A stretch of 52,203 bases of DNA, from assembly GCF_021699055.1 (NCBI RefSeq), contig NZ_SSXC01000022.1, forward strand, positions 1 to 52,203. The letters run 5' to 3'. The translations under genes were made by a program, and so were the position numbers. Position 1 is the stretch's first letter. Every line of letters starts with the position of its first letter. Of this stretch, positions 1,685-42,328 are shown piece by piece. This stretch comes from Blastococcus sp. MG754426. Its GTDB lineage: Bacteria; Actinomycetota; Actinomycetes; Mycobacteriales; Geodermatophilaceae. Below the pieces are notes generated by a model. That model was not told where the DNA came from. It made no database searches and saw nothing but the letters and a program-made list of their open reading frames with translations.

Positions 1685-2224
1685 TCAGGTGGCCTGGTCG
1701 CGGACCAGCTCGGCCCGGCGGGCGAGGTCGTCGGCGACGCGCTGGGCGACGTCGTGCTCGAGGTGCCAGATCCGCACGGTGCCCTGGCTGGAGGCGGTGA
1801 GCACCGCGACGGTGGCCAGACCGAACAGCTGCTGCAGCACGCCGCGGGTGACGTCGACGGTCTGGATGCGGGAGATCGGCACCAGCGTCCAGGTCTGGGT
1901 GAGCCAGCCGGTGCGGGTGTAGGCGGCCTCGTTGGTGATCTCCCACCGGTACACCCGGTGCTTGAACCACGGGCGGATGCTCAGCGCGACCACCGCGTAC
2001 ACGGCGCCCGCGATCGGGACCAGCCGGCGCATCAGCGGCAGCGGGTCGCCGGCGTCGGCGGGCACGAAGAGCAGGAAGGCGCCGATCGCCAGCCACACGA
2101 ACGCGGTGCTGATCAGGCTCTCGACCACCCACAGCCCGATCGCCGAGCGCGGCAGCTCCCAGGCGGGCTCGCGCACGGGCGTCGGGCGGGCGCTGCTCGG
2201 GGCGGCCCGGTGGCTGGGGGACAT
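1685..2224 (-). CDS. PH domain-containing membrane protein (YdbS-like)
   Basis: About 179 residues: a short cytoplasmic N-terminus, two hydrophobic segments (AIGLWVVESLISTAFVWLAI and the region around LVPIAGAVYAVVAL), then one bPH2 domain beginning near WEITNEAAYTRTGW and containing ISRIQTVDVTRG. It is the first gene of the two-gene PH operon. I prefer the ATG at 2224, which has GGAGG about 9 nt upstream and also a GAGGAT 7 nt upstream that could act as a leaderless -10. An in-frame ATG at 2233 abuts the GGAGG and would have no spacing. Function unknown beyond the fold. Confidence 0.8.
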   Translation of the reverse strand: MSPSHRAAPSSARPTPVREPAWELPRSAIGLWVVESLISTAFVWLAIGAFLLFVPADAGDPLPLMRRLVPIAGAVYAVVALSIRPWFKHRVYRWEITNEAAYTRTGWLTQTWTLVPISRIQTVDVTRGVLQQLFGLATVAVLTASSQGTVRIWHLEHDVAQRVADDLARRAELVRDQAT

Positions 2225-2289
2225 CGGCCCCATCCTCCCAGTGCGGTCGGCGCCGGTCGCGCAACCGGTCCCCGTGCCACGATGGGGGC

Positions 2290-2622
2290 GTGATGCCGCA
2301 GCAGGTCCCGACCGTGCCCGCCTCCGAACTGCCCGAGGACGCCGTCGTCCTCGACGTCCGCGAGGACGACGAGTGGGTGCACGGCCACATCGAGGGCGCC
2401 ACGCACATCCCGATGGGCGACGTCCCGGCGCGGCTCGACGAGCTGCCCGAGGGCGACCCGCTCTACGTCACCTGCCGGGGCGGTGGCCGGTCGGCGCGCG
2501 TGGCCGCCTGGCTGAACGCCAACGGCTTCGACGCGGTGAACGTCGGCGGTGGCATGGGCGAGTGGCAGGCGGCCGGCAAGCCGATGGTCAGCGAGACCGG
2601 CGAGGAGCCCTTCGTCCGCTGA
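2290..2622 (+). CDS. Single-domain rhodanese-like protein
   Basis: 110 residues, a complete single rhodanese domain (sulfurtransferase or sulfur carrier). Visible landmarks are VVLDVREDDEW near the N-terminus, HIEGATHIPMGDV, and the active-site loop YVTCRGGGRSARVA, where the Cys would carry the persulfide, followed by LNANGFDAVNVGGGMGEW, a typical rhodanese C-terminal signature. The start is GTG-ATG; a CACGAT hexamer ends 6 nt upstream, so it may be leaderless. Divergent from the PH operon and convergent with the membrane protein gene at 2661, sharing a bidirectional terminator. Physiological acceptor unknown. Confidence 0.88.
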   Translation: MMPQQVPTVPASELPEDAVVLDVREDDEWVHGHIEGATHIPMGDVPARLDELPEGDPLYVTCRGGGRSARVAAWLNANGFDAVNVGGGMGEWQAAGKPMVSETGEEPFVR

Positions 2623-2664
2623 CCCCTCCTGGCGTTCTGTGCACAAAACGCCAGGAGGGGTCAG
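2619..2664. terminator. Bidirectional terminator palindrome (family A, copy 1)
   Basis: Perfect 18-bp arms, CTGACCCCTCCTGGCGTT at 2619-2636 and its complement at 2647-2664, around a 10-nt loop containing TGTGCACA. The arms include both stop codons of the flanking convergent genes. The inner 2631-2652 core recurs at 11167 and 46665. Confidence 0.8.
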
Positions 2665-3431
2665 CGCCAGGCGGCCGCGGTCTCCTCGTCGAAGTACCGG
2701 GTGAAGCCGCACAGCCAGGCGATCGGCTCCAGCGGTGCGCCCTCCCACCGGTCGGCGCCGCTGACCAGCAGGCGCGACCCGATGCCGTAGACCGGGCCCG
2801 GCGTGGTGCTGCCCGCGGCCGGGTCGTAGGGCGCCGGGAGGTCCACGGTCACCGTCTCCCCCGACCCGCCGGTGAACCACTCCTGCACGGCGAAGGTGAC
2901 GCCGACCAGGTCCTCCGGCGGCCCGGGTGAGCGCGGCTGCGTCGTGACGGCGGGTCCGATGCCCACCACCACGCCGGCGAAGGCGAAGTCTCGCTTGGCC
3001 AGCGCGGCCGGGCTGTACTCGACGGCGCAGGAGCTCGCAGGGGTGCTGTCGAGGGGCCCGGTGCGCCCGGCGGTCGGGTCCTGGGCGGGCGGGGCGAGCT
3101 GGCTGCCCGACGCTGCGTCGCCGCCGTCGGCCGGGGGCATGCCGGTGCCCGGCGCGGCGTCGGCCGCCTCCGGGCCGCCCTCCCGGGGCTCCTCGGCGCT
3201 CAGCGCCGCCGCCGAGCCGGCGGCGTCCCCCTGCCCGTCCGGCAGGTCGACGACGGTGACCACGCCGCCGGCGATGACCGCCGCACCCGCCGCGACGGCG
3301 AGCGAGACACCGGCGGTCCGGCGCCGGCGTGCGCGGCGCCCCGCCTTCAGCAGCTGCCCCACGGGTGCGGGGCCGACCGGCACGCGGTCGGCGGCCTCCC
3401 CCAGCAACGTCGAGGTCTCCCGGTCGGTCAC
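2661..3431 (-). CDS. Membrane-anchored protein coupled to the SigE-type sigma factor
   Basis: 256 residues if started at GTG 3431, which overlaps the TGA of the upstream sigma-factor gene (GTGA) with GGAGGG just before it. A cytoplasmic N-terminus of about 35 residues is followed by a run of basic residues (RRARRRRT), one transmembrane segment (VSLAVAAGAAVIAGGVVTVV), a long Ala/Gly/Pro-rich linker and an extracytoplasmic domain with two Cys (SSCAVEY and WLCGF). Size, topology and coupling suggest an anti-sigma factor or sensor partner of the sigma factor, but no zinc anti-sigma (HxxxCxxC) motif is visible. It could instead be a secreted-domain protein of another kind. Confidence 0.75.
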   Translation of the reverse strand: MTDRETSTLLGEAADRVPVGPAPVGQLLKAGRRARRRRTAGVSLAVAAGAAVIAGGVVTVVDLPDGQGDAAGSAAALSAEEPREGGPEAADAAPGTGMPPADGGDAASGSQLAPPAQDPTAGRTGPLDSTPASSCAVEYSPAALAKRDFAFAGVVVGIGPAVTTQPRSPGPPEDLVGVTFAVQEWFTGGSGETVTVDLPAPYDPAAGSTTPGPVYGIGSRLLVSGADRWEGAPLEPIAWLCGFTRYFDEETAAAWR

Positions 3432-32861: not shown

Positions 32862-32891
32862 ACGGTAGCGGCCGCCGGACGGCCGGGTCAG
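32862..32891 (-). promoter_or_regulatory. Candidate promoter of the GDT1 gene
   Basis: On the minus strand CTGACC (32891-32886) and TACCGT (32867-32862) are 18 bp apart. This predicts an untranslated leader of about 55 nt, and the -35 lies within the end of the neighbouring GGDEF gene. Confidence 0.4.
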
Positions 32892-34387
32892 GGAGCGGGG
32901 ACGGTGGGATCGGTCACCGGGCGGGGCGCCGGGACGCGGGCGCCCCGGCGGGCCGCCTTCACCCGGTACATCGCGGCGTCGGAGGCGGCCAGCGCGGAGT
33001 CCGGGGTCTCGCCGGGCCCGCAGAGCGCCACCCCGATGCTGATGCCGACGGCGTGCACATCGCCGTTGGGGCGGCGGAGGGGGGCGTCGAACGCGGCGGT
33101 GATCCGGTCGGCGATGACCTGGGCGGCCCGCTCGGAGCCGGCCTCCGGGCAGAGGACGACGAACTCGTCGCCGCCGATCCGCGCCACCGTGTCGCCGGGG
33201 CGGATCGCCGCGGCCAGCCGGCGGGCGGCCTCCACGAGCACCTCGTCACCGGCGGCGTGCCCGGCGGTGTCGTTGACCGGCTTGAACCCGTCGAGGTCGC
33301 AGTAGAGCACCGCCATCGGACGGCGGGCCCGCTCCGCGGCGGCGAGGGTCTGGTCCAGCCGGTCGAGGAGCAGGTTGCGGTTGGGCAGGCCGGTGAGCGG
33401 GTCGTGCAGCGCGGCGTCGCGCAGCGCGTCCTCGAGGGCCCGCTGCTCGGTGACGTCGGAGAGCGTGACGACGGCGCCGAGCAGGTCGCCGTCGGCGCCG
33501 TGCACCTGCACGCCGGAGCAGGAGATGCGGCGGAACGGCCGGCCCGGCAGGGCGATGCCCATCTCGGCGTCGTCGATCCGCCCTTCGGCGTAGATCCTGC
33601 GCAGCGGCACCTGCTCGGGGGTCAGCGGCTGCCCCGTGACGTCGGTGAGGCCGAAGGTGACCGGGATGTCCGCCGGCTCCACCGTCGGGTCGGCGTCGAG
33701 GCCGTGCCAGCGGCGGCTGGCGGCGTTGAAGAGGGTCACCCGACCCGCGGCGTCCGCGCCCACCACGCCGACGGGCAGCACCTCGAGAAGGGACCGCGTG
33801 AAGGCCGTCGAGCGGGCCAGCTCCTGGTGCGCCCGGGCGGTCTCGGCCCGGGCGAGCTGGCTGGCGGCGGCGAGGTCGGCGAGCTCGCGCGCCTGCTGCC
33901 CCGCGCGGAGCAGCGCGGCCACCGCGGCGGCGACGTCGGCCAGCCGGGCGCGCTCGGTGTCGGTGAAGGCGTGCGGCACCACGTCGAAGACGCAGACCGC
34001 CGCCACCGTGCGGCCGTCCACGACCACCGGGACGGTGCCGAAGGCGCGCATCCGTGCGCGGCGCCCGTCCAGCCAGGGGCTGCCGGCGAACGCCGGCTCC
34101 AGCGCGAGGTCGTCGCAGGTCTGCACCCCCGGCCCCCGCTCGAGCACGGTCGCCACCATGGAGCCCTCGCGCGGCCAGGAGGCGCCGCGGAAGCCGTGCA
34201 CCGCCAGGACGTGCATGACGGCGGTGTCCATGGTGATCACCGAGGCCCAGGGCGTCCCGGTGACCGCGGCGGCCACCCGCACCAGGCCCTGGAGCGCGGG
34301 GTCGGCGTCCATGACGGGCAGCTCGGAGTCCGCCTCGCGGGCGTCCGGACGCGTGGGCACCGGCGCGGGCTCGGCCGTGCTCGTCAT
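32888..34387 (-). CDS. Diguanylate cyclase with GAF and PAS sensor domains
   Basis: 499 residues from ATG 34387, preceded by a G-rich site (GGGGGGACACGAG). A GAF domain at about 35-185 (VRVAAAVTGTPWASVITMD ... VAAVCVFDVVPHAFTDTE), a short helix, a PAS domain at about 215-330 (VLPVGVVGADAAGRVTLFNAASRRWHG ... LGAVVTLSDVTEQ), then GGDEF at about 335-490. The active site GGDEF is intact, and an RxxD inhibitory site (RPGD) lies five residues before it. It makes c-di-GMP from two GTP. No transmembrane segment, so a cytosolic signal is sensed. It lies apart from the GGDEF pair at 36.9-41.3 kb. Confidence 0.93.
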   Translation of the reverse strand: MTSTAEPAPVPTRPDAREADSELPVMDADPALQGLVRVAAAVTGTPWASVITMDTAVMHVLAVHGFRGASWPREGSMVATVLERGPGVQTCDDLALEPAFAGSPWLDGRRARMRAFGTVPVVVDGRTVAAVCVFDVVPHAFTDTERARLADVAAAVAALLRAGQQARELADLAAASQLARAETARAHQELARSTAFTRSLLEVLPVGVVGADAAGRVTLFNAASRRWHGLDADPTVEPADIPVTFGLTDVTGQPLTPEQVPLRRIYAEGRIDDAEMGIALPGRPFRRISCSGVQVHGADGDLLGAVVTLSDVTEQRALEDALRDAALHDPLTGLPNRNLLLDRLDQTLAAAERARRPMAVLYCDLDGFKPVNDTAGHAAGDEVLVEAARRLAAAIRPGDTVARIGGDEFVVLCPEAGSERAAQVIADRITAAFDAPLRRPNGDVHAVGISIGVALCGPGETPDSALAASDAAMYRVKAARRGARVPAPRPVTDPTVPAP

Positions 34388-34550
34388 CTCGTGTCCCCCC
34401 GCGGGCAGGACCGGCGCTTCCGGTCCGTCCAGTTTCGCAACGGCGCGCACGCTACGGCGGTTGAGCCCCGGCGTGTCACTTCCCCCGCACGGGTCATCCG
34501 CGTCCGGCGGTTTCCCGTGGAACACCGGTGCGCTCGGGCCGTCCCGGGTC

Positions 34551-35722: not shown

Positions 35723-36928
35723 TCAACCCCAGAGCGGGGGCGGCGCGGCGCGCGGGCCCACCGGGTGGGCCGCCTCCGCGGCGGCCGTGGCGGCCCGCAG
35801 CACCTCCTTGACCGGCAGCTCGCGGGCGCGGGCCAGCGCGGCGACGTCCTCGTACTCGACGCTCACGTTGACCACCTCACCGCCGGAGACGGCGAGCTTC
35901 ACGCCGACCGGGGCGCCGAGCACCTCCACGGTGGCCTGCACCCGCTCCAGGGCGACCTTCCCGACCTCGACCACCCGCAGCCCGATGGTCGACGTCGTCG
36001 CGAAGACCGCGGCCTGCACGGCGGGCACGACCTCGGGCCGGCAGAGGACCGACAGGGTGTGCGCCGGGCGGCCCTTCTTCATCAGGATCGGGGTGAGCCA
36101 CGCGTCGGACGCGCCCGCGGCGAGGAGGTCGTCGAGGACGCCGGGCCACACCCGCGGGTCGAGGTCGTCGACGTTGGCCTCGAGCACGACCGGGCGGGCC
36201 GGCGCGGGGTCGCCGGCGTGGCCCAGGACCAGCCGGACGACGTTGGGCTGCTGCTCGGGGTCGCGCGCGCCGGCGCCCACGCCGACCCGCTCGACGCGGA
36301 GGGCGGGCAGCGTCGTCCACTCCTCCACCCGGGCGGCGAGCAGCGCGGCGCCGGTGGGCGTGCACGTCTCCGCCGGGACCGCCCCGGCGTGCACCGGCGC
36401 CCCGGCGAGCAGTTCCAGCACGGCCGGGCCGGGGACGGGGACGACGCCGTGCGACCCGCGCGCCGTGCCGCTGCCCAGCGCGACGGGCGACGCGGTCAGC
36501 CGCGACAGGCCCAGGTGCTCGAAGGCGGCGACCACGCCCACCACGTCGGCCAGGGCGTCCAGCGCGCCGACCTCGTGGAAGTGCACCTCCGCCGGGTCGA
36601 CGCGGTGCACCCGGCCCTCCGCGACGGCCAGCCGCTCGAACACGTCGAGCGCGCCGTCGCGCACCGGTGCCGGCAGCGCCGCGGACCGGAGCAGCTCCCG
36701 GACGTCGGCCCAGGTGCGCCGCACGTCCGACGGCGGGGCGTGCACGTGCACCCGGGTGGCGCCGAGGCCGTGCCGGGTGACCTGCTCGGTGGTCAGCCGC
36801 ACCGGCTCGACCGGCAGCGCGGCCACCGCCCGCGCCGGCACGTCCAGCGGCACCCCGGCGTCGACCAGGGCACCCAGCAGCATGTCCCCCGAGGCGCCCG
36901 CCGCCAGGTCCAGCCACCCGATGGTCAT
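35723..36928 (-). CDS. larC: Nickel-pincer cofactor nickel insertase LarC
   Basis: 401 residues in one continuous frame. In some Lactobacillus LarC is split and joined by programmed frameshifting; here it is a single ORF. Signatures: GWLDLAAGASGDMLLGALVDAGVP at the N-terminus, VHFHEVGALDALADVVG, TCTPTGAALLA, EANVDDLDPRVW, and ILMKKGRPAHTLSVL near residue 290. LarC is the CTP-dependent cyclometallase that inserts Ni into pyridinium-bisthiocarboxylate mononucleotide, the cofactor of lactate racemase LarA and its homologues. The ATG overlaps the stop of the upstream GGDEF-LarB-like gene (ATGA). LarE and a LarA-type enzyme are not in this window. Confidence 0.93.
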   Translation of the reverse strand: MTIGWLDLAAGASGDMLLGALVDAGVPLDVPARAVAALPVEPVRLTTEQVTRHGLGATRVHVHAPPSDVRRTWADVRELLRSAALPAPVRDGALDVFERLAVAEGRVHRVDPAEVHFHEVGALDALADVVGVVAAFEHLGLSRLTASPVALGSGTARGSHGVVPVPGPAVLELLAGAPVHAGAVPAETCTPTGAALLAARVEEWTTLPALRVERVGVGAGARDPEQQPNVVRLVLGHAGDPAPARPVVLEANVDDLDPRVWPGVLDDLLAAGASDAWLTPILMKKGRPAHTLSVLCRPEVVPAVQAAVFATTSTIGLRVVEVGKVALERVQATVEVLGAPVGVKLAVSGGEVVNVSVEYEDVAALARARELPVKEVLRAATAAAEAAHPVGPRAAPPPLWG

Positions 36929-39603
36929 GACGACGTCCGCGCGCTCCTGCGTGCGACGCGGGCGGCGAAGATGCCGGCCGAGCAGCCGTCGTCCACCGCG
37001 GTGACGACGACACCGGAGCCCGCCGGGTGCAGCATCGACACCAGCGCGCCCAGCCCGCCCAGCCCGCCGGGGTGCGCGGCCGACGTCGGGACCGCCACCA
37101 CCGGCACGTCGGTGCGGGCGGCGATCGAGGAGACCTGCGCGGCGTCGGCGCCGGCGACGACGACCAGGCAGTCGGCGTCCTCCGGGAGCGGGTCGCCCTC
37201 GACCAGCACCACCTCGGTGCCCGCGACCCGGGCCACGAAGGCGGCCTCCGCGGTGGCGACGGGGTCGGCCCCGTCGGTGCGCAGCACGGCGGTGCGGCCG
37301 GCCGGCCGCGGCAGCGGGCCGACGGCGGCGGCCTCCGCGGCGCCGTCCACGGTGGTGCCGGAGCCGTGCTCGGTGGCCAGCGCCACCAGGGTCGAGGGTG
37401 CCGCCCGGACGACGAGCACCGGGCGGTCGGGGGTGTCGCGCCGGGCGTCGCGGACGAGGGCCAGCACCTGCTCGGTGCTGCGGCCGGCTGCCCGGACCAC
37501 CGCCGGGCCGACCTCCTCGGCGGGGCGGCGCACGGTCGCATCGGGCACGAGGAGCGGCTCGCCCGGGTGGGGACGCCCCAGCGGGGGGTGCGGCTCGCCC
37601 AGCAGCGCGGCGAACCCGGCGGCCTCCTCGCGGACGGCGGCGACGGCGCGGGCGGCGTCGCCGTCCGGGGTGGTCCGCGGGGCCGGCGTCCCGGGTGCGG
37701 GGGCCGGGGCGGCGCCGTCGGCCGCCCGGGTCTGGGTGAGCGCGGAGAGCCGGACGACGCGGTCGCGGCCGCTGCGCTTGGCGTCGTAGAGCACGCCGTC
37801 GGCGGCGGCGAACAGGGTCTTGCGGTCGTCGCCCCGGGTGGCCGAGGCGATGCCGGCGCTGATGGTCACCGGGACGTCGAGGCCGAGGTCCACCCACGGG
37901 TAGCGCGCGACCGCGGCCCGGATGCGCTCCAGCGCCCGCTCACCCTGCTCCGCGGTGGTCTCGGGCAGCAGGATGACGAACTCGTCGCCGGCCCAGCGGC
38001 ACACCTCGTCGGTGTCGCGCACGCCGGCGACCAGCAGCTCGCCGACGGTGCGCAGCACGGCGTCGCCGGCCGGGTGCCCGGCGGTGTCGTTGATCGCCTT
38101 GAAGTTGTCGACGTCGACCACGGCCAGCGCCGGCACGTCGCCGGCGGCGAGCAGCCCGTCCAGCCGCGCCTCGGCGTAGCGCCGGTTGGGCAGGTGGGTG
38201 AGCGGGTCCTCGTAGGCCTGCCGGCGCAGCTGCCCGGCGGCGCGCTCGGTCTCCAGCAGGCTCTTGCGCCGGCCGAACAGCTCCACCCAGCGGGTGCGCC
38301 GCTCGTCGACCCGGTCCAGCTCGTCGGCCAGGTAGGCCTGCAGGTACGGCAGCGCCCGCCCGGCGTCGTCGAGGTCGGCGTGCAGGGTGCACAGCTCGCG
38401 GAGCGCGGCCCGGCGCACCCGGGGCAGTCCGTGCTCGGTGGCCAGGGTGAGCGCGGCGACCAGGTGCTCGTCGGCCGCCCGCCCCTCGCCCTGCCGGCGC
38501 AGCGCCCGGCCCAGGGCGAGCTCGGCGGAGGCGGTGCGGTCGCGGTCGGCGGTGGCGGTCGCCTGCCGGACGGCGGCGCGGAGCGGCCCGACCGCCGCCA
38601 CCTGCTCGCCCATGCCCACCAGGGCCCACCCGTGCACGACCTGGGCCGCCACGACGCCGGGCGACTCCGGCGGCAGCTGCACCAGCGCCTGCTCGGCCAG
38701 CGCGCGTGCCTCGGCGAAGTAGGGCGCGGCGGACTCGGGGGCGCCGTCGTCCAGGAGCCCCTCGCCGAGCTCGGCGCACAGCTCCCCGAGCCGGGTGGCG
38801 GCCACGGCGACGAGCACGTCGCGGTCGGGCTCCGCGGCGGGGCCGGCCGCGACCGCCTGCGCGGCCTCCAGCGCGCGCCGCTGGTAGTCCAGCGCCAGCG
38901 GCATGAGCTCCAGGTCGGCGAGCACCCCGGCCAGCGTGCCCAGCGTGTCGACCAGCAGCGGGCTGGGGGTGAGCTCCGGGTCGAGCAGGCTCGCGGCCTC
39001 CACCGCCTCGTCCATCGCGGCGTCGATGCGCCGCGAGAGCAGCTCGATGCGCGCGTGCCGAGCGAGGCCCGCGGCCCGCTGGAGGGCGTCGTCGGCGGCG
39101 TCGAACGCGGCCTTCGCCGAGCGGACCAGCGCGATCGCGAGGGCGGCGCGGGAGGCCTGCTCCGCGCGCGGGTCGGCGTCCGGGTCGTCGGGGGAGCCGT
39201 CGATCAGCCCGGCGACACCGGCGTGCAGGTCGAGGGCGGGCCCTGCGGGGGAGACGGGCTCACCCACGAGGGTGAACCCGGCGACGCGCAGCCGGCGCAC
39301 CAGGAGCTCGGCGCGCAGCGTGTCGGCCCACGCGCGGCCCAGCGACGCCGGGGCGCCCTCGGGCGCGTCGGGCGCAGGAGTGGCGGCGACGTAGGGCGAG
39401 GGGTCCCGCTCGACCCCGGCGAGCAGCCGCTCGGCGTCGTCGAGCTGCCAGTTGCTGAGGGCGGCGGTCACCCGCTGGTGCAGGGCTCCCGGTGGCACGA
39501 GCGCACTGTGCATGTCGTCACCGAGCGTGTCGAGGACGTCACGGGAAACGCGCCGTCCCCCGTCCGACGCGTCCCTCCCGTCCCACGCGTGCAGCGTGGT
39601 CAC
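36925..39603 (-). CDS. TPR-like, GGDEF and LarB-like domain fusion protein
   Basis: 892 residues from GTG 39603. Residues 1-450 are helical repeats of TPR type. Residues 460-620 form a GGDEF domain (YEDPLTHLPNRRYAEARL, active site WAGDEF at 537-542, RDTD inhibitory site just before). A Pro/Ala/Thr linker covers about 623-648. Residues 649-892 resemble LarB, the PurE-like enzyme that carboxylates and cleaves nicotinate adenine dinucleotide for the nickel-pincer cofactor; the best match is VPVVAVPTSAAHPGGLGGLGALVSML at 838-858. Several LarB motifs are altered (see findings). The start overlaps the previous stop (GTGA) and the stop overlaps the larC start (ATGA). No stop or frame change separates the domains. 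Whether the LarB part is catalytic is open. Confidence 0.82.
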   Translation of the reverse strand: MTTLHAWDGRDASDGGRRVSRDVLDTLGDDMHSALVPPGALHQRVTAALSNWQLDDAERLLAGVERDPSPYVAATPAPDAPEGAPASLGRAWADTLRAELLVRRLRVAGFTLVGEPVSPAGPALDLHAGVAGLIDGSPDDPDADPRAEQASRAALAIALVRSAKAAFDAADDALQRAAGLARHARIELLSRRIDAAMDEAVEAASLLDPELTPSPLLVDTLGTLAGVLADLELMPLALDYQRRALEAAQAVAAGPAAEPDRDVLVAVAATRLGELCAELGEGLLDDGAPESAAPYFAEARALAEQALVQLPPESPGVVAAQVVHGWALVGMGEQVAAVGPLRAAVRQATATADRDRTASAELALGRALRRQGEGRAADEHLVAALTLATEHGLPRVRRAALRELCTLHADLDDAGRALPYLQAYLADELDRVDERRTRWVELFGRRKSLLETERAAGQLRRQAYEDPLTHLPNRRYAEARLDGLLAAGDVPALAVVDVDNFKAINDTAGHPAGDAVLRTVGELLVAGVRDTDEVCRWAGDEFVILLPETTAEQGERALERIRAAVARYPWVDLGLDVPVTISAGIASATRGDDRKTLFAAADGVLYDAKRSGRDRVVRLSALTQTRAADGAAPAPAPGTPAPRTTPDGDAARAVAAVREEAAGFAALLGEPHPPLGRPHPGEPLLVPDATVRRPAEEVGPAVVRAAGRSTEQVLALVRDARRDTPDRPVLVVRAAPSTLVALATEHGSGTTVDGAAEAAAVGPLPRPAGRTAVLRTDGADPVATAEAAFVARVAGTEVVLVEGDPLPEDADCLVVVAGADAAQVSSIAARTDVPVVAVPTSAAHPGGLGGLGALVSMLHPAGSGVVVTAVDDGCSAGIFAARVARRSARTSS

Positions 39604-41273
39604 CCGCCCGCCCCCCGGTCCGGGGGAGCCTCGGCGGGGCCGTGCGCGCGCACCCGGTTGCGGCCCAGGCGCTTGGCGGAGAACAGGTGCAGGTCGGCGG
39701 TGTCGAACAGCGACCGCCAGCCGGCGACCGGGCTGGGCTGGCCCTCGGCCGCCGCCGGCGCCGTCGCCACGCCGATGCTGACCGTCACCGGCGACGAGAG
39801 CTCCAGGTCGCCCCAGTCGGCCCCGGCGACGGCCGACCGCAGCCGCTCCATGACCACCACGGCCTGGGCCTCGGTGGCGGTGGGCAGCACCACGAGGAAC
39901 TCGTCACCGGCCCAGCGGTAGACCTCGTCCCCGGTGCGGCTGTGCTCGCGCAGCAGGTCGGCCACCCGCCGCAGCACGGCGTCGCCGTGGGTGTGCGAGG
40001 TGTCGTCGTTGACCTTCTTGAACCGGTCGACGTCGACGACGGCCAGCGACAGCGGCTCCTCGCCCAGCCGCATCGAGCCCAGCCGGCGCTCGGCGCTGCG
40101 CCGGTTGCCCAGCCCGGTGAGCGGGTCCTCCAGCGCGTGCCGGCGCAGCACCGCCTCCTGCCGCTCGGCCTCGCGCAGCCGGCTGCGGCGCACGAACATC
40201 TCCGCCCACAGCTCCCGGCTGCGGGCGTGCGCGCGGCCGGTGTCGGCGCGGTAGGCCTCCAGCCAGTGCAGCGCCTCCGCGGGGCGGCCCAGGTCGGCGT
40301 TGCCCTGCCCCAGCTCCAGCAGGCTCTGCCGGTAGCGGCGGCGGTCGCCGGCGGCCGCGAACGCCCCGGACGCGTCGACCAGCAGGTCGATGGCCTCCTC
40401 GCCGGGGGCGGTGCGGCCGTCGCGCGCGGCCACGGCCGAGAGCACGCGGGCCAGCGCCAGGTCGGCGTACCCGCGCAGCCACAGCCCGCCGTCCCGCTGC
40501 AGCGCCCGCCGGACCCGGCGGAGCGGCCCCAGCGCGGCGTCGGGGTCGCCGCTGCACATCAGCGCCCAGGCCTGCACGACGTCGAGCAGGTCGGCGTCGG
40601 CCTGCTCGGGGGACCAGTCCAGCTCGCGCGCGGCGGTGGCGCAGGTGATCGCCTCGCCGGCCAGCTCGGCGGCGCGCTCGGCCTCCCCGCGGCGGCGCAT
40701 GGTCTGGGCGAGCTCGACGTGCTGGCGGGCCGCGAGCAGGAGCAGCAGCCCGCGGTCGCCGACGTCGGGCAGCGCCGCGGCGACCTGGTGCCCGCGGACC
40801 GCGTGGTGGACGGCGAGCTCCTCTAGGTCCAGGGCGGAGAGGGTCAGCGACAGCCAGCGGTGCGCCTGCAGCAGGGCGCGGGAGGGCGGCAGCGACGGGC
40901 TGTCGGTGAGCAGGCTGGCGTCGACGGCGAGCAGCATCGCGGCGTCGAGGTGGTCGGCGGTCGTCTCGACGTGCGCCAGGTAGGCCATCAGCAGCGCCGT
41001 CCCGGCGGACACGGGGCAGGCGTCGAGCTGCTCGCGGGCCGCGGCGATCGCGGACGACGCCGCGGCGGTGTCGCCGTCCACCAGGGCGCGCCGGGCGCCG
41101 AAGGCGTGCCGCCAGGCCTGCCAGGTCGGCCAGGAGGTCTCGGGGAAGGCCTCGTCGACCCGGTCGGCGAGGGCGAGGAACGGGGCGGGGTCCTCCCGGT
41201 CGCTGGCGTCGAGCAGCCGCCAGAGGGCGCTCTGCAGGTCGCCGGGGGCGACGCGGGCCGGTCCGGGGCTCAC
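39600..41273 (-). CDS. TPR-GGDEF diguanylate cyclase
   Basis: 557 residues from GTG 41273, with GGAGGGATGC upstream. Residues 1-370 are amphipathic helical repeats (TPR-like) without membrane segments. GGDEF spans about 380-545: LEDPLTGLGNRRSAERRL, VDRFKKVNDD, active site WAGDEF at 454-459, with inhibitory RTGD five residues earlier. Paralogous throughout to the TPR-GGDEF part of the next gene, suggesting tandem duplication. Promoter-proximal gene of the three-gene unit, coupled by GTGA overlap. Likely a cytosolic cyclase controlled by protein contacts through its TPRs. Confidence 0.9.
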   Translation of the reverse strand: MSPGPARVAPGDLQSALWRLLDASDREDPAPFLALADRVDEAFPETSWPTWQAWRHAFGARRALVDGDTAAASSAIAAAREQLDACPVSAGTALLMAYLAHVETTADHLDAAMLLAVDASLLTDSPSLPPSRALLQAHRWLSLTLSALDLEELAVHHAVRGHQVAAALPDVGDRGLLLLLAARQHVELAQTMRRRGEAERAAELAGEAITCATAARELDWSPEQADADLLDVVQAWALMCSGDPDAALGPLRRVRRALQRDGGLWLRGYADLALARVLSAVAARDGRTAPGEEAIDLLVDASGAFAAAGDRRRYRQSLLELGQGNADLGRPAEALHWLEAYRADTGRAHARSRELWAEMFVRRSRLREAERQEAVLRRHALEDPLTGLGNRRSAERRLGSMRLGEEPLSLAVVDVDRFKKVNDDTSHTHGDAVLRRVADLLREHSRTGDEVYRWAGDEFLVVLPTATEAQAVVVMERLRSAVAGADWGDLELSSPVTVSIGVATAPAAAEGQPSPVAGWRSLFDTADLHLFSAKRLGRNRVRAHGPAEAPPDRGAGG

Positions 41274-41368
41274 GCATCCCTCCCTCCGCGGCGGGGCCCC
41301 GGAGGGCCGGTGGTACCGGTCCCCGGCACCCCTACCCGGGCCGGGCGACCACGTCGTTCCGTGCGCAC

Positions 41369-41380
41369 TACCCTCGTCGG
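41369..41380 (+). promoter_or_regulatory. Leaderless-type -10 element of pheA
   Basis: TACCCT at 41369-41374 ends 6 nt before the ATG at 41381; no Shine-Dalgarno sequence lies between. Confidence 0.6.
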
Positions 41381-42328
41381 ATGCCCGGGATGCCACCCAG
41401 TCCGCCGCCGACGCGGTTCGCCTACCTGGGGCCCGAGGGTACCTTCGCCGAAGCGGCCCTGAGCAGGGCGATCGCCACCGCCGGGGGACGGCGGGACCCC
41501 CACCCGAGTGTCGCCGCGGCGCTGGCGGCCGTCCGTTCGGGGGACGCCGACGCCGCCCTCGTGCCGCTGGAGAACTCCGTCGAGGGGTCGGTGCCGGCGA
41601 CCATGGACGGGCTGGCCGACGGCGACCCGCTGGTGATCACCCGCGAGGTGTACCTGGAGGTGGCGTTCGTCCTCGCCGTCCGGCCGGGGACATCGCTCTC
41701 CGACGTCCGGTCGGTCGCCAGCCACCCGCACGCCCTCGCCCAGACCACCGGGCGGCTGGCCGGGCTGCTGCCGGGGATCCGGCCGCTGCCCACCGCCTCG
41801 ACCGCCGCGGCCGCGGCGGCGGTGGCCGCCGGCGAGGTGGACGCCGCCGTCTGCGCGGCGATCGCGGCGGAGCGGTACGGGCTCGAGGTCCTCGCCGACG
41901 ACGTCGCCGACACCGCGGGCGCCGTCACCCGGTTCGTGCTGGTCCGGCCGCCCGGCCGGCTGCCCGCGCCGACCGGCAACGACAAGACCTCGCTGACCGT
42001 CGTCGTCGGGGACCGCACCGGGGCGCTGCTGGACGTGCTGCGCGAGTTCGCCGTCCGCGACATCAGCCTGACCCGCATCGAGTCGCGGCCCACCCGGCAG
42101 CGGCTCGGCGTCTACTCGTTCTCCCTCGACTGCGAGGGGCACGTCGCCGACGCGCGGGTGGGCGAGGCGCTGGCCGCGCTGCACCGGGTGTGCGACGACG
42201 TCCGCTTCCTCGGGTCCTACGCCCGCGCCGACGGCCGGGAGAACCGGGCGGTGCCGCCGGGGTCCTCCGACGCGGCGTTCGTCGAGGCCGGGGAGTGGCT
42301 GGCCGGGGTCCGCGCCGGCGGCAGCTGA
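41381..42328 (+). CDS. pheA: Prephenate dehydratase
   Basis: 315 residues. Catalytic domain about 10-190: RFAYLGPEGTFAEAAL, ALVPLENSVEGSV, VASHPHALAQT, and AGAVTRFVLV with the catalytic Thr of the TRF motif. A C-terminal ACT domain follows (SLTVVVGDRTGALLDVLREFAVRDISLTRIESRPTR), with the GALL and ESRP motifs that bind phenylalanine for feedback inhibition. It converts prephenate to phenylpyruvate in phenylalanine synthesis. Monofunctional, with no chorismate mutase domain. Start ATG 41381 appears leaderless; ATG 41390 is an in-frame alternative. Confidence 0.95.
   Translation: MPGMPPSPPPTRFAYLGPEGTFAEAALSRAIATAGGRRDPHPSVAAALAAVRSGDADAALVPLENSVEGSVPATMDGLADGDPLVITREVYLEVAFVLAVRPGTSLSDVRSVASHPHALAQTTGRLAGLLPGIRPLPTASTAAAAAAVAAGEVDAAVCAAIAAERYGLEVLADDVADTAGAVTRFVLVRPPGRLPAPTGNDKTSLTVVVGDRTGALLDVLREFAVRDISLTRIESRPTRQRLGVYSFSLDCEGHVADARVGEALAALHRVCDDVRFLGSYARADGRENRAVPPGSSDAAFVEAGEWLAGVRAGGS

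Follow-up and report, generated by a model that had tools for sequence, protein, structure and literature searches.

GGDEF domains make cyclic di-GMP (c-di-GMP) as pairs, and enzymes of the PleD type are switched by bringing two such domains together. The LarB family also forms multimers. Its reaction, according to a passage of PMC11796402, is that of a nicotinic acid adenine dinucleotide (NaAD) carboxylase/hydrolase. Both kinds of domain occur in one protein of Blastococcus sp. MG754426 (GCF_021699055.1), encoded on contig NZ_SSXC01000022.1, of which we analysed the whole stretch of 52,203 nucleotides (the window): a single frame upstream of larC joins a region resembling tetratricopeptide repeats (TPR) and a GGDEF domain to a C-terminal LarB-like tail. 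We found that this fusion occurs in most Geodermatophilaceae genomes, and that its tail has lost catalytic residues of LarB, is under selection and persists in genomes without nickel-pincer genes. The tail is probably a dead LarB that has become a regulatory module of a TPR-diguanylate cyclase, and it would act by controlling the cyclase.

The closest described protein is LarB of Lactiplantibacillus plantarum (PDB 7mj0, 7mj1, 7mj2 and 8soq), which has the same fold over the whole domain (query template modelling (TM) score up to 0.85 for a typical tail), shares 34 strongly conserved positions with the tails and, in 63 of 102 genomes, also their place upstream of larC. The tail differs in sitting behind a TPR-GGDEF part, in having lost 21 conserved positions and in scoring under the curated LarB cut-off. 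PurE, the AIR carboxylase of Pfam family PF00731, shares the core fold (34.1 bits over fusion residues 810-885, cut-off 30), and its structural match is weaker than that of LarB. Diguanylate cyclases with sensory domains, such as the structural matches PleD, SiaD and DgcB, have in common with the fusion a GGDEF domain with A-site and I-site; unlike in these enzymes, the extra domain of the fusion has a metabolic enzyme as its source and is placed after the GGDEF domain. A TPR-GGDEF paralogue encoded just upstream is 40% identical to the fusion, and the LarB-like tail is found in the fusion only. The parts of the fusion are as follows.

36925..39603, minus strand: TPR-GGDEF-LarB-like fusion, 892 aa, read from 39603 to 36925, GTG start, no internal stop
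38284..39516, minus strand: helical TPR-like region, residues ~30-440 (Pfam TPR_MalT, E 2e-4, under cut-off)
37759..38217, minus strand: GGDEF domain, residues 463-615 (Pfam, E 6e-38)
37534..37752, minus strand: linker, residues 618-690, predicted disordered (low model confidence)
36928..37533, minus strand: LarB-like tail (LBX), residues 691-892 (NF033503 match and Foldseek)
37021..37023, minus strand: codon of Ala861, at the site of the LarB catalytic Cys221 (alignment to LarB)

An initial annotation of this DNA, which gave no strand, had described an uninterrupted frame of 892 residues, with an apparently active GGDEF domain and a C-terminal LarB-like domain, whose stop overlaps the larC start. 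All of these features are borne out. It mentioned neither the missing catalytic residues of the tail nor the second TPR-GGDEF gene immediately upstream. The same annotation had suggested that the tail ties cofactor synthesis to second-messenger signalling; this did not survive the analysis below.

A LarB homologue without catalytic residues of LarB

By sequence the tail is clearly a homologue of LarB, and clearly an untypical member of the family. The NCBIfam LarB profile NF033503 matches it over positions 11-208 of 209, scoring 65.6 bits with the fusion and 70.7 bits with the tail alone: a significant match, though one that stays under the curated cut-off of 175. The more typical homologue L146 is also under that cut-off, at 167.4 bits. 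A model of the L146 tail, with a predicted local distance difference test score (pLDDT) of 89, retrieved 27 LarB chains in Foldseek (query TM 0.79-0.85, best E 1.9e-19), and LarB chains outranked every PurE (query TM ~0.5). As modelled, the tail has the LarB/PurE fold. A chance match to LarB is ruled out by the near full-length profile match together with this fold.

We numbered tail residues by alignment to L. plantarum LarB, using 95 tails. Position 221, which we take to be the catalytic cysteine of LarB in both number and role, is a cysteine in none of them (Ala 73, Ser 10, Thr 6, Gly 4, Pro 2), its place in the window's tail being held by Ala861. LarB is said, in the title of a paper, to form a cysteinyl-pyridine intermediate. 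Ser127, in the AGTSD motif, is likewise kept in no tail (Gly 47, Ala 43, others or gap 5); an S127A variant of LarB was among the crystallised structures matched. His158 of the VAGIHR loop is kept in 8 of 95 tails, with mostly Arg instead, and the loop is deleted altogether in the window, in its nearest relative (L038) and in L123. Other residues are retained: Asp128 in 93, Ser201 and Asp231 in all 95. Position 180, where Glu is presumably important in LarB, is acidic in 94 of 95 tails (Asp 87, Glu 7, Gly 1), and Asp is also present there in the intact LarB encoded elsewhere in the same genome.

Set against 26 canonical LarBs, the tails keep 34 conserved positions in at least 90% of cases and lose 21 in at least 90%, a tally that excludes positions intermediate between both thresholds. 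The lost positions include Lys57, Ser127, Gly156, His158, Arg159, Tyr204, Gly205 and Cys221. Five of the 21 (39-47) belong to the N-terminal part, for which the alignment is the least certain; the majority of the others fall within or beside the motifs named above. The conserved core that is kept comprises Asp128, VPTS and IDxG. Moreover, the tails have a consensus wording of their own, VPTSTGQ and AGLDA, and residues near-invariant in LarB are swapped: Lys57 for Arg in 94 of 95 tails, Gly181 for Ala in all 95. On this pattern of residues the tail is unlikely to function as LarB.

The cyclase part keeps its motifs. The GGDEF profile matches the fusion at 130.6 bits (Pfam cut-off 23.8), and both the I-site (RDTD, residues 529-532) and the A-site (AGDEF, 538-542) are intact, so that from its motifs the fusion is predicted to be a diguanylate cyclase. 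One pattern matched both sites in 66 of 71 full-length named homologues; the 5 without a pattern match were not inspected. The TPR region gives a weak MalT-like match in Pfam, under the cut-off, and nothing further. In an AlphaFold2 model of the full-length protein this region is helical, with block pLDDT values of 84-98 over residues 211-430 and mostly 42-85 over 31-210. The model is well predicted for residues 211-430, the GGDEF domain and most of the tail, and poorly for the first 210 residues and the linker (pLDDT <50 at 623-650 and 657-696). With a mean pLDDT of 77 and a predicted TM score (pTM) of 0.48, its domain arrangement is not reliable. Foldseek searches with it rank GGDEF structures first, and LarB (7mj0_B) at rank 24 with a target TM of 0.79.

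Distribution and origin of the fusion

The genomes that carry the fusion belong to the Geodermatophilaceae, as judged from the titles of matching named records. The tail query, which also picks up ordinary LarBs, matches 111 of 112 genomes of the family. By our reading, a fused-type tail is present in 102 of them, some of these being contig-end fragments in which the fusion is not visible (for example G097, G033 and G019). Apart from G080, discussed below, the remaining 9 genomes represent three genera (g5, g6 and g7), and have an ordinary LarB only and no close TPR-GGDEF orthologue. At 101 loci, we found 90 in-frame fusions (the window included), 6 ordinary LarBs, 3 cuts by contig ends and 2 changes of frame, so that 90 of 92 assessable loci carry the fusion as an open frame. 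An assembly error in the window is therefore rejected, and in these loci the frame runs on through the linker, where the initial annotation had allowed for a hidden stop or frameshift. At the two discordant loci, L103 (in G046) and L107 (in G091), a frame change in the linker sets the GGDEF and LarB-like parts apart, which is either a sequencing error or a true split.

Among the best 80 of 280 named relatives, most are from Blastococcus, Geodermatophilus, Modestobacter and Klenkia, with Goekera and Trujillonella also present; a few have vaguer titles, and one is an unverified record naming a Bacillus. In 71 of these 80 a single frame joins the TPR start to the tail; in the remaining 9 the available stretch stops short of the TPR start. 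These named loci overlap with the family genomes, and the two sets of counts are not additive.

The TPR-GGDEF part gives a second view of the same distribution. Orthologues (E up to 1e-60) are present in 75 of 397 genomes sampled from the order, all 75 in the Geodermatophilaceae, and 74 of the 75 have the tail. The exception, G080, cannot be judged: its TPR-GGDEF frame stops a few residues before a contig end, ahead of any tail, and loss of the tail was rejected as an explanation there. Among the matches listed for the order sample and for a phylum sample of 396 genomes, no GGDEF-LarB fusion was seen outside the family. We examined six further loci (5 in the phylum sample, 1 in the order sample) at which the LarB hit falls within an open frame as long as 551-801 aa, and none of the six gives a GGDEF match, in a check that left aside some frames of ~450-550 aa. 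The initial annotation's statement that no such fusion has been described agrees with the literature we searched, in which we found no description of a GGDEF-LarB/AIR carboxylase fusion; that search covered open-access papers only and is weak evidence of absence.

How could a LarB come to follow a cyclase? We took 12 loci (L246-L257) from other families of the order. In 11 of them larB and larC are neighbours on the same strand, with larC downstream and the frames adjoining or overlapping (exact starts were not computed); the sole exception, L254, has no LarC at the fetched locus. The 12 LarBs of these loci all have the cysteine, 10 have the AGTSD pattern, and no GGDEF match was found in their frames. 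Genera g6 and g7 of the Geodermatophilaceae have an ordinary larB-larC pair too (L132-L136). With larB so commonly upstream of larC, the larC adjacency of the fusion looks inherited. In a tree rooted at midpoint, 25 sampled tails form one clade with support 100/100, placed beside the LarBs of the order on a weak exact branch (82/59). On this synteny and the one tree, the simplest history would begin with a larB-larC pair whose larB became fused to the preceding gene, and the single clade suggests that this happened once. An ancestor of most Geodermatophilaceae would have acquired this in-frame fusion, with a TPR-GGDEF gene as the partner; the joined larB would then have lost its NaAD-carboxylating residues and stayed on as a non-catalytic module.

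Nickel-pincer genes and selection on the tail

The genome of the window has a separate, intact LarB (241.2 bits to NF033503, cut-off 175) adjoining LarE, and the idea that the tail is its only LarB was therefore rejected. The genes of the intact LarB and LarE face each other with overlapping ends (L002:1219-1896, plus strand, and 1887-2723, minus strand, in G000 C211). Of the two further homologues that the initial annotation suggested looking for, larE is thus present, and for larA no LarA-type match was found in this genome; 35 of the 112 family genomes have one. The genome therefore holds LarB, LarE and one LarC, genes for the pincer cofactor with no known enzyme to use it. According to a passage of PMC11796402, ~15% of the genomes analysed there have larB, larC and larE without larA.

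We then sorted the 102 tail genomes by their pathway genes, counting as canonical those LarB-query matches with E up to about 1e-56. In 53 (the window's genome and 52 others) there is an own-type LarB, at least 76% identical to the intact one of the window's genome, and LarC lies downstream of the fusion. One has LarC in this place together with a LarB of a second type, which shares 59-64% identity with the own type. Nine have LarC downstream and no canonical LarB among the LarB-query matches, three of these (G057, G081 and G096) with a second, weaker match to the LarB query beyond the rows listed. Eleven have the second LarB type, and LarC elsewhere than at the fusion. Finally, 28 have no LarC match, no LarE match and no LarB match besides the tail. 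All 28 are at least 95% complete, each has exactly one LarB-query match, the tail, and all lie outside the 73 of 112 family genomes with a LarE match. LarC thus follows the tail in 63 of 102 genomes; the distance stays within 780 bases in 55 of these and reaches up to 4.8 kb in the others.

The second LarB type occurs in G039, G043, G047-G051, G056, G061, G062, G109 and G014; LarC adjoins it in 11 of these 12 genomes, several of which also have a LarA-type gene nearby, and the arrangement suggests that a lar cluster was acquired separately. In G002, G011, G013, G015 and G018, which are of the same genus as the window's genome, LarC lies downstream of the fusion with E 7e-93 to 5e-108, compared with ~1e-129 in the window, and no canonical LarB or LarE match was found; this LarC may be decaying or in other use.

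As the 28 pathway-free genomes show, the pincer pathway is not required for the tail to persist; these genomes also permit a comparison of selection. We estimated the ratio of non-synonymous to synonymous substitution rates (dN/dS) by a simple pairwise count (Nei-Gojobori style) on this high-GC DNA, with pairs at 80-97% tail identity that are not independent, in 27 of the 28 pathway-free genomes and in 41 of the 53 pathway genomes (first 60 pairs). The median for the tail is 0.21 in both sets (39 pairs without the pathway, 60 with it), against 0.48 and 0.51 for the linker and 0.10 and 0.17 for the GGDEF domain. The tail is under selection.

The other features of the neighbourhood are these.

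35723..36928, minus strand: larC, 401 aa (profile match; sole LarC match in the window's genome)
39600..41396, minus strand: upstream TPR-GGDEF paralogue, 598 aa, without LarB-like tail (Pfam)
32888-34525 of the window, minus strand: GAF-PAS-GGDEF protein (Pfam)

The larC product scores over the cut-offs of Pfam LarC (431.3 bits) and of NCBIfam LarC1 (194.1 bits, cut-off 90) and LarC2 (131.9 bits, cut-off 50). Its ATG shares 4 bases (ATGA) with the fusion stop, an overlap confined to the window and L038. At the other end, the paralogue's stop overlaps the fusion's GTG start, and 91 of 95 loci have a TPR-GGDEF paralogue upstream of the fusion; at the remaining 4 the contig breaks off. The GTG at 39603 is favoured as the start by the similar N-terminus among same-genus relatives; an ATG at codon 31, at 39513, is a possible alternative, and of the 75 loci with the motif 54 have ATG or GTG at the corresponding position and 21 a non-start codon. 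The fusion, its paralogue and the GAF-PAS-GGDEF protein make three GGDEF genes within 9 kb.

What the tail may do

That the joined form also occurs in genomes in which a search for the cofactor pathway gave no match speaks for a regulatory part put to new use rather than for a cofactor maker. The likeliest job of the tail would be control of the cyclase. Since it retains the LarB fold and much of the conserved core, it may still bind a nucleotide-like ligand, or bring chains together in such a way that their GGDEF domains pair up, or both; a tail of this fold could hold or release such pairs, perhaps upon nucleotide binding. A more specific version, in which the tail senses a nicotinate nucleotide of the NaAD/NAD type or an adenylate, sets the activity of the cyclase and so reads the state of NAD precursors into c-di-GMP, is possible at best, and for any one particular ligand the probability is well under half. 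A reader of the signal is at hand in the family: twin-motif RsiG, which reads c-di-GMP, is reported in PMC8325347 for 16 of 16 Geodermatophilaceae species.

Several observations weigh against a regulatory module. The tail is linked to LarC in 63 of 102 genomes, among them all 53 with an own-type LarB, which makes a role beside the pathway possible where the pathway is present. In addition, the window's own tail is degenerate: the loop around VAGIHR is deleted, the tail is 62% identical to that of L146 where 46 others are 70-93% identical, and it shares a long branch (0.46) of the tree with the tail of G005. Its dN/dS is 0.22 against L038 (linker 0.31), but 0.44 against L039 and 0.35 against L040, not lower than the linker (0.32 and 0.35). 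The tail of the window's lineage may thus be losing even its retained role.

Other explanations were considered. That the fusion is a bifunctional enzyme, with a tail making the pincer-cofactor precursor coupled to a GGDEF domain making c-di-GMP, is very improbable. LarB homology does span the whole domain, and larC overlaps the fusion in the window and lies downstream in 63 of 102 genomes, but the catalytic cysteine and serine are missing in 95 of 95 tails, the VAGIHR loop is deleted in the window, an intact LarB is encoded elsewhere in its genome, and 28 genomes keep the tail without LarC, LarE or a second LarB match. The same losses, with LarE beside the intact LarB and no LarA match, speak against the tie between cofactor synthesis and c-di-GMP that the initial annotation had put forward. 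The dead LarB might instead pair with true LarB or LarC as a regulator or scaffold that brings pincer-cofactor synthesis under c-di-GMP control, and a mixed assembly is conceivable for a protein of a multimeric family; the position of LarC downstream of the fusion in all 53 genomes with an own-type LarB would fit. We regard this as distinctly unlikely: the median dN/dS of the tail is identical where the pathway was not found, LarC is elsewhere in 11 of the 12 genomes with the second LarB type, and since larB-larC adjacency is common in related families (11 of 12 loci), synteny with larC is by itself no sign of function.

A pocket remodelled for another nucleotide reaction would make the tail a new enzyme, and its conserved wording (VPTSTGQ, AGLDA) and the near-invariant residues changed (Arg for Lys57 in 94 of 95 tails, Ala for Gly181 in 95 of 95) could be taken in this sense. 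However, no conserved nucleophile is present in the places of Cys221 and Ser127, and a loop of the old pocket is missing entirely in the window and two other tails, which leaves a new activity unlikely. There is also little to be said for a functionless relic carried along by the cyclase, to which the extra loss in the window's lineage, the tail dN/dS against L039 and L040 that is not under that of the linker, and the frame changes before the tail in L103 and L107 would correspond. Against it stand the median tail dN/dS of 0.21 in both sets of pairs (39 and 60), compared with 0.48 and 0.51 for the linker, the frame retained in 90 of 92 assessable loci, and the tail in 74 of 75 order-sample genomes with a TPR-GGDEF orthologue, the other being G080 with its contig end; we consider a relic scarcely credible.

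The regulatory module thus describes a nearly family-wide case in which a metabolic enzyme has seemingly been turned into a non-catalytic part of a second-messenger enzyme, and a cyclase with a dead-enzyme tail across most of a family is of more interest than an isolated fusion. Material for comparison is available in the intact relatives, in the neighbouring gene of the old operon and in the pathway-free genomes. A caution also follows: the fusion protein should not be annotated, or counted in surveys, as a LarB. Should the tail prove to have a nicotinate or adenine nucleotide as its ligand, it would represent a new kind of input into c-di-GMP signalling.

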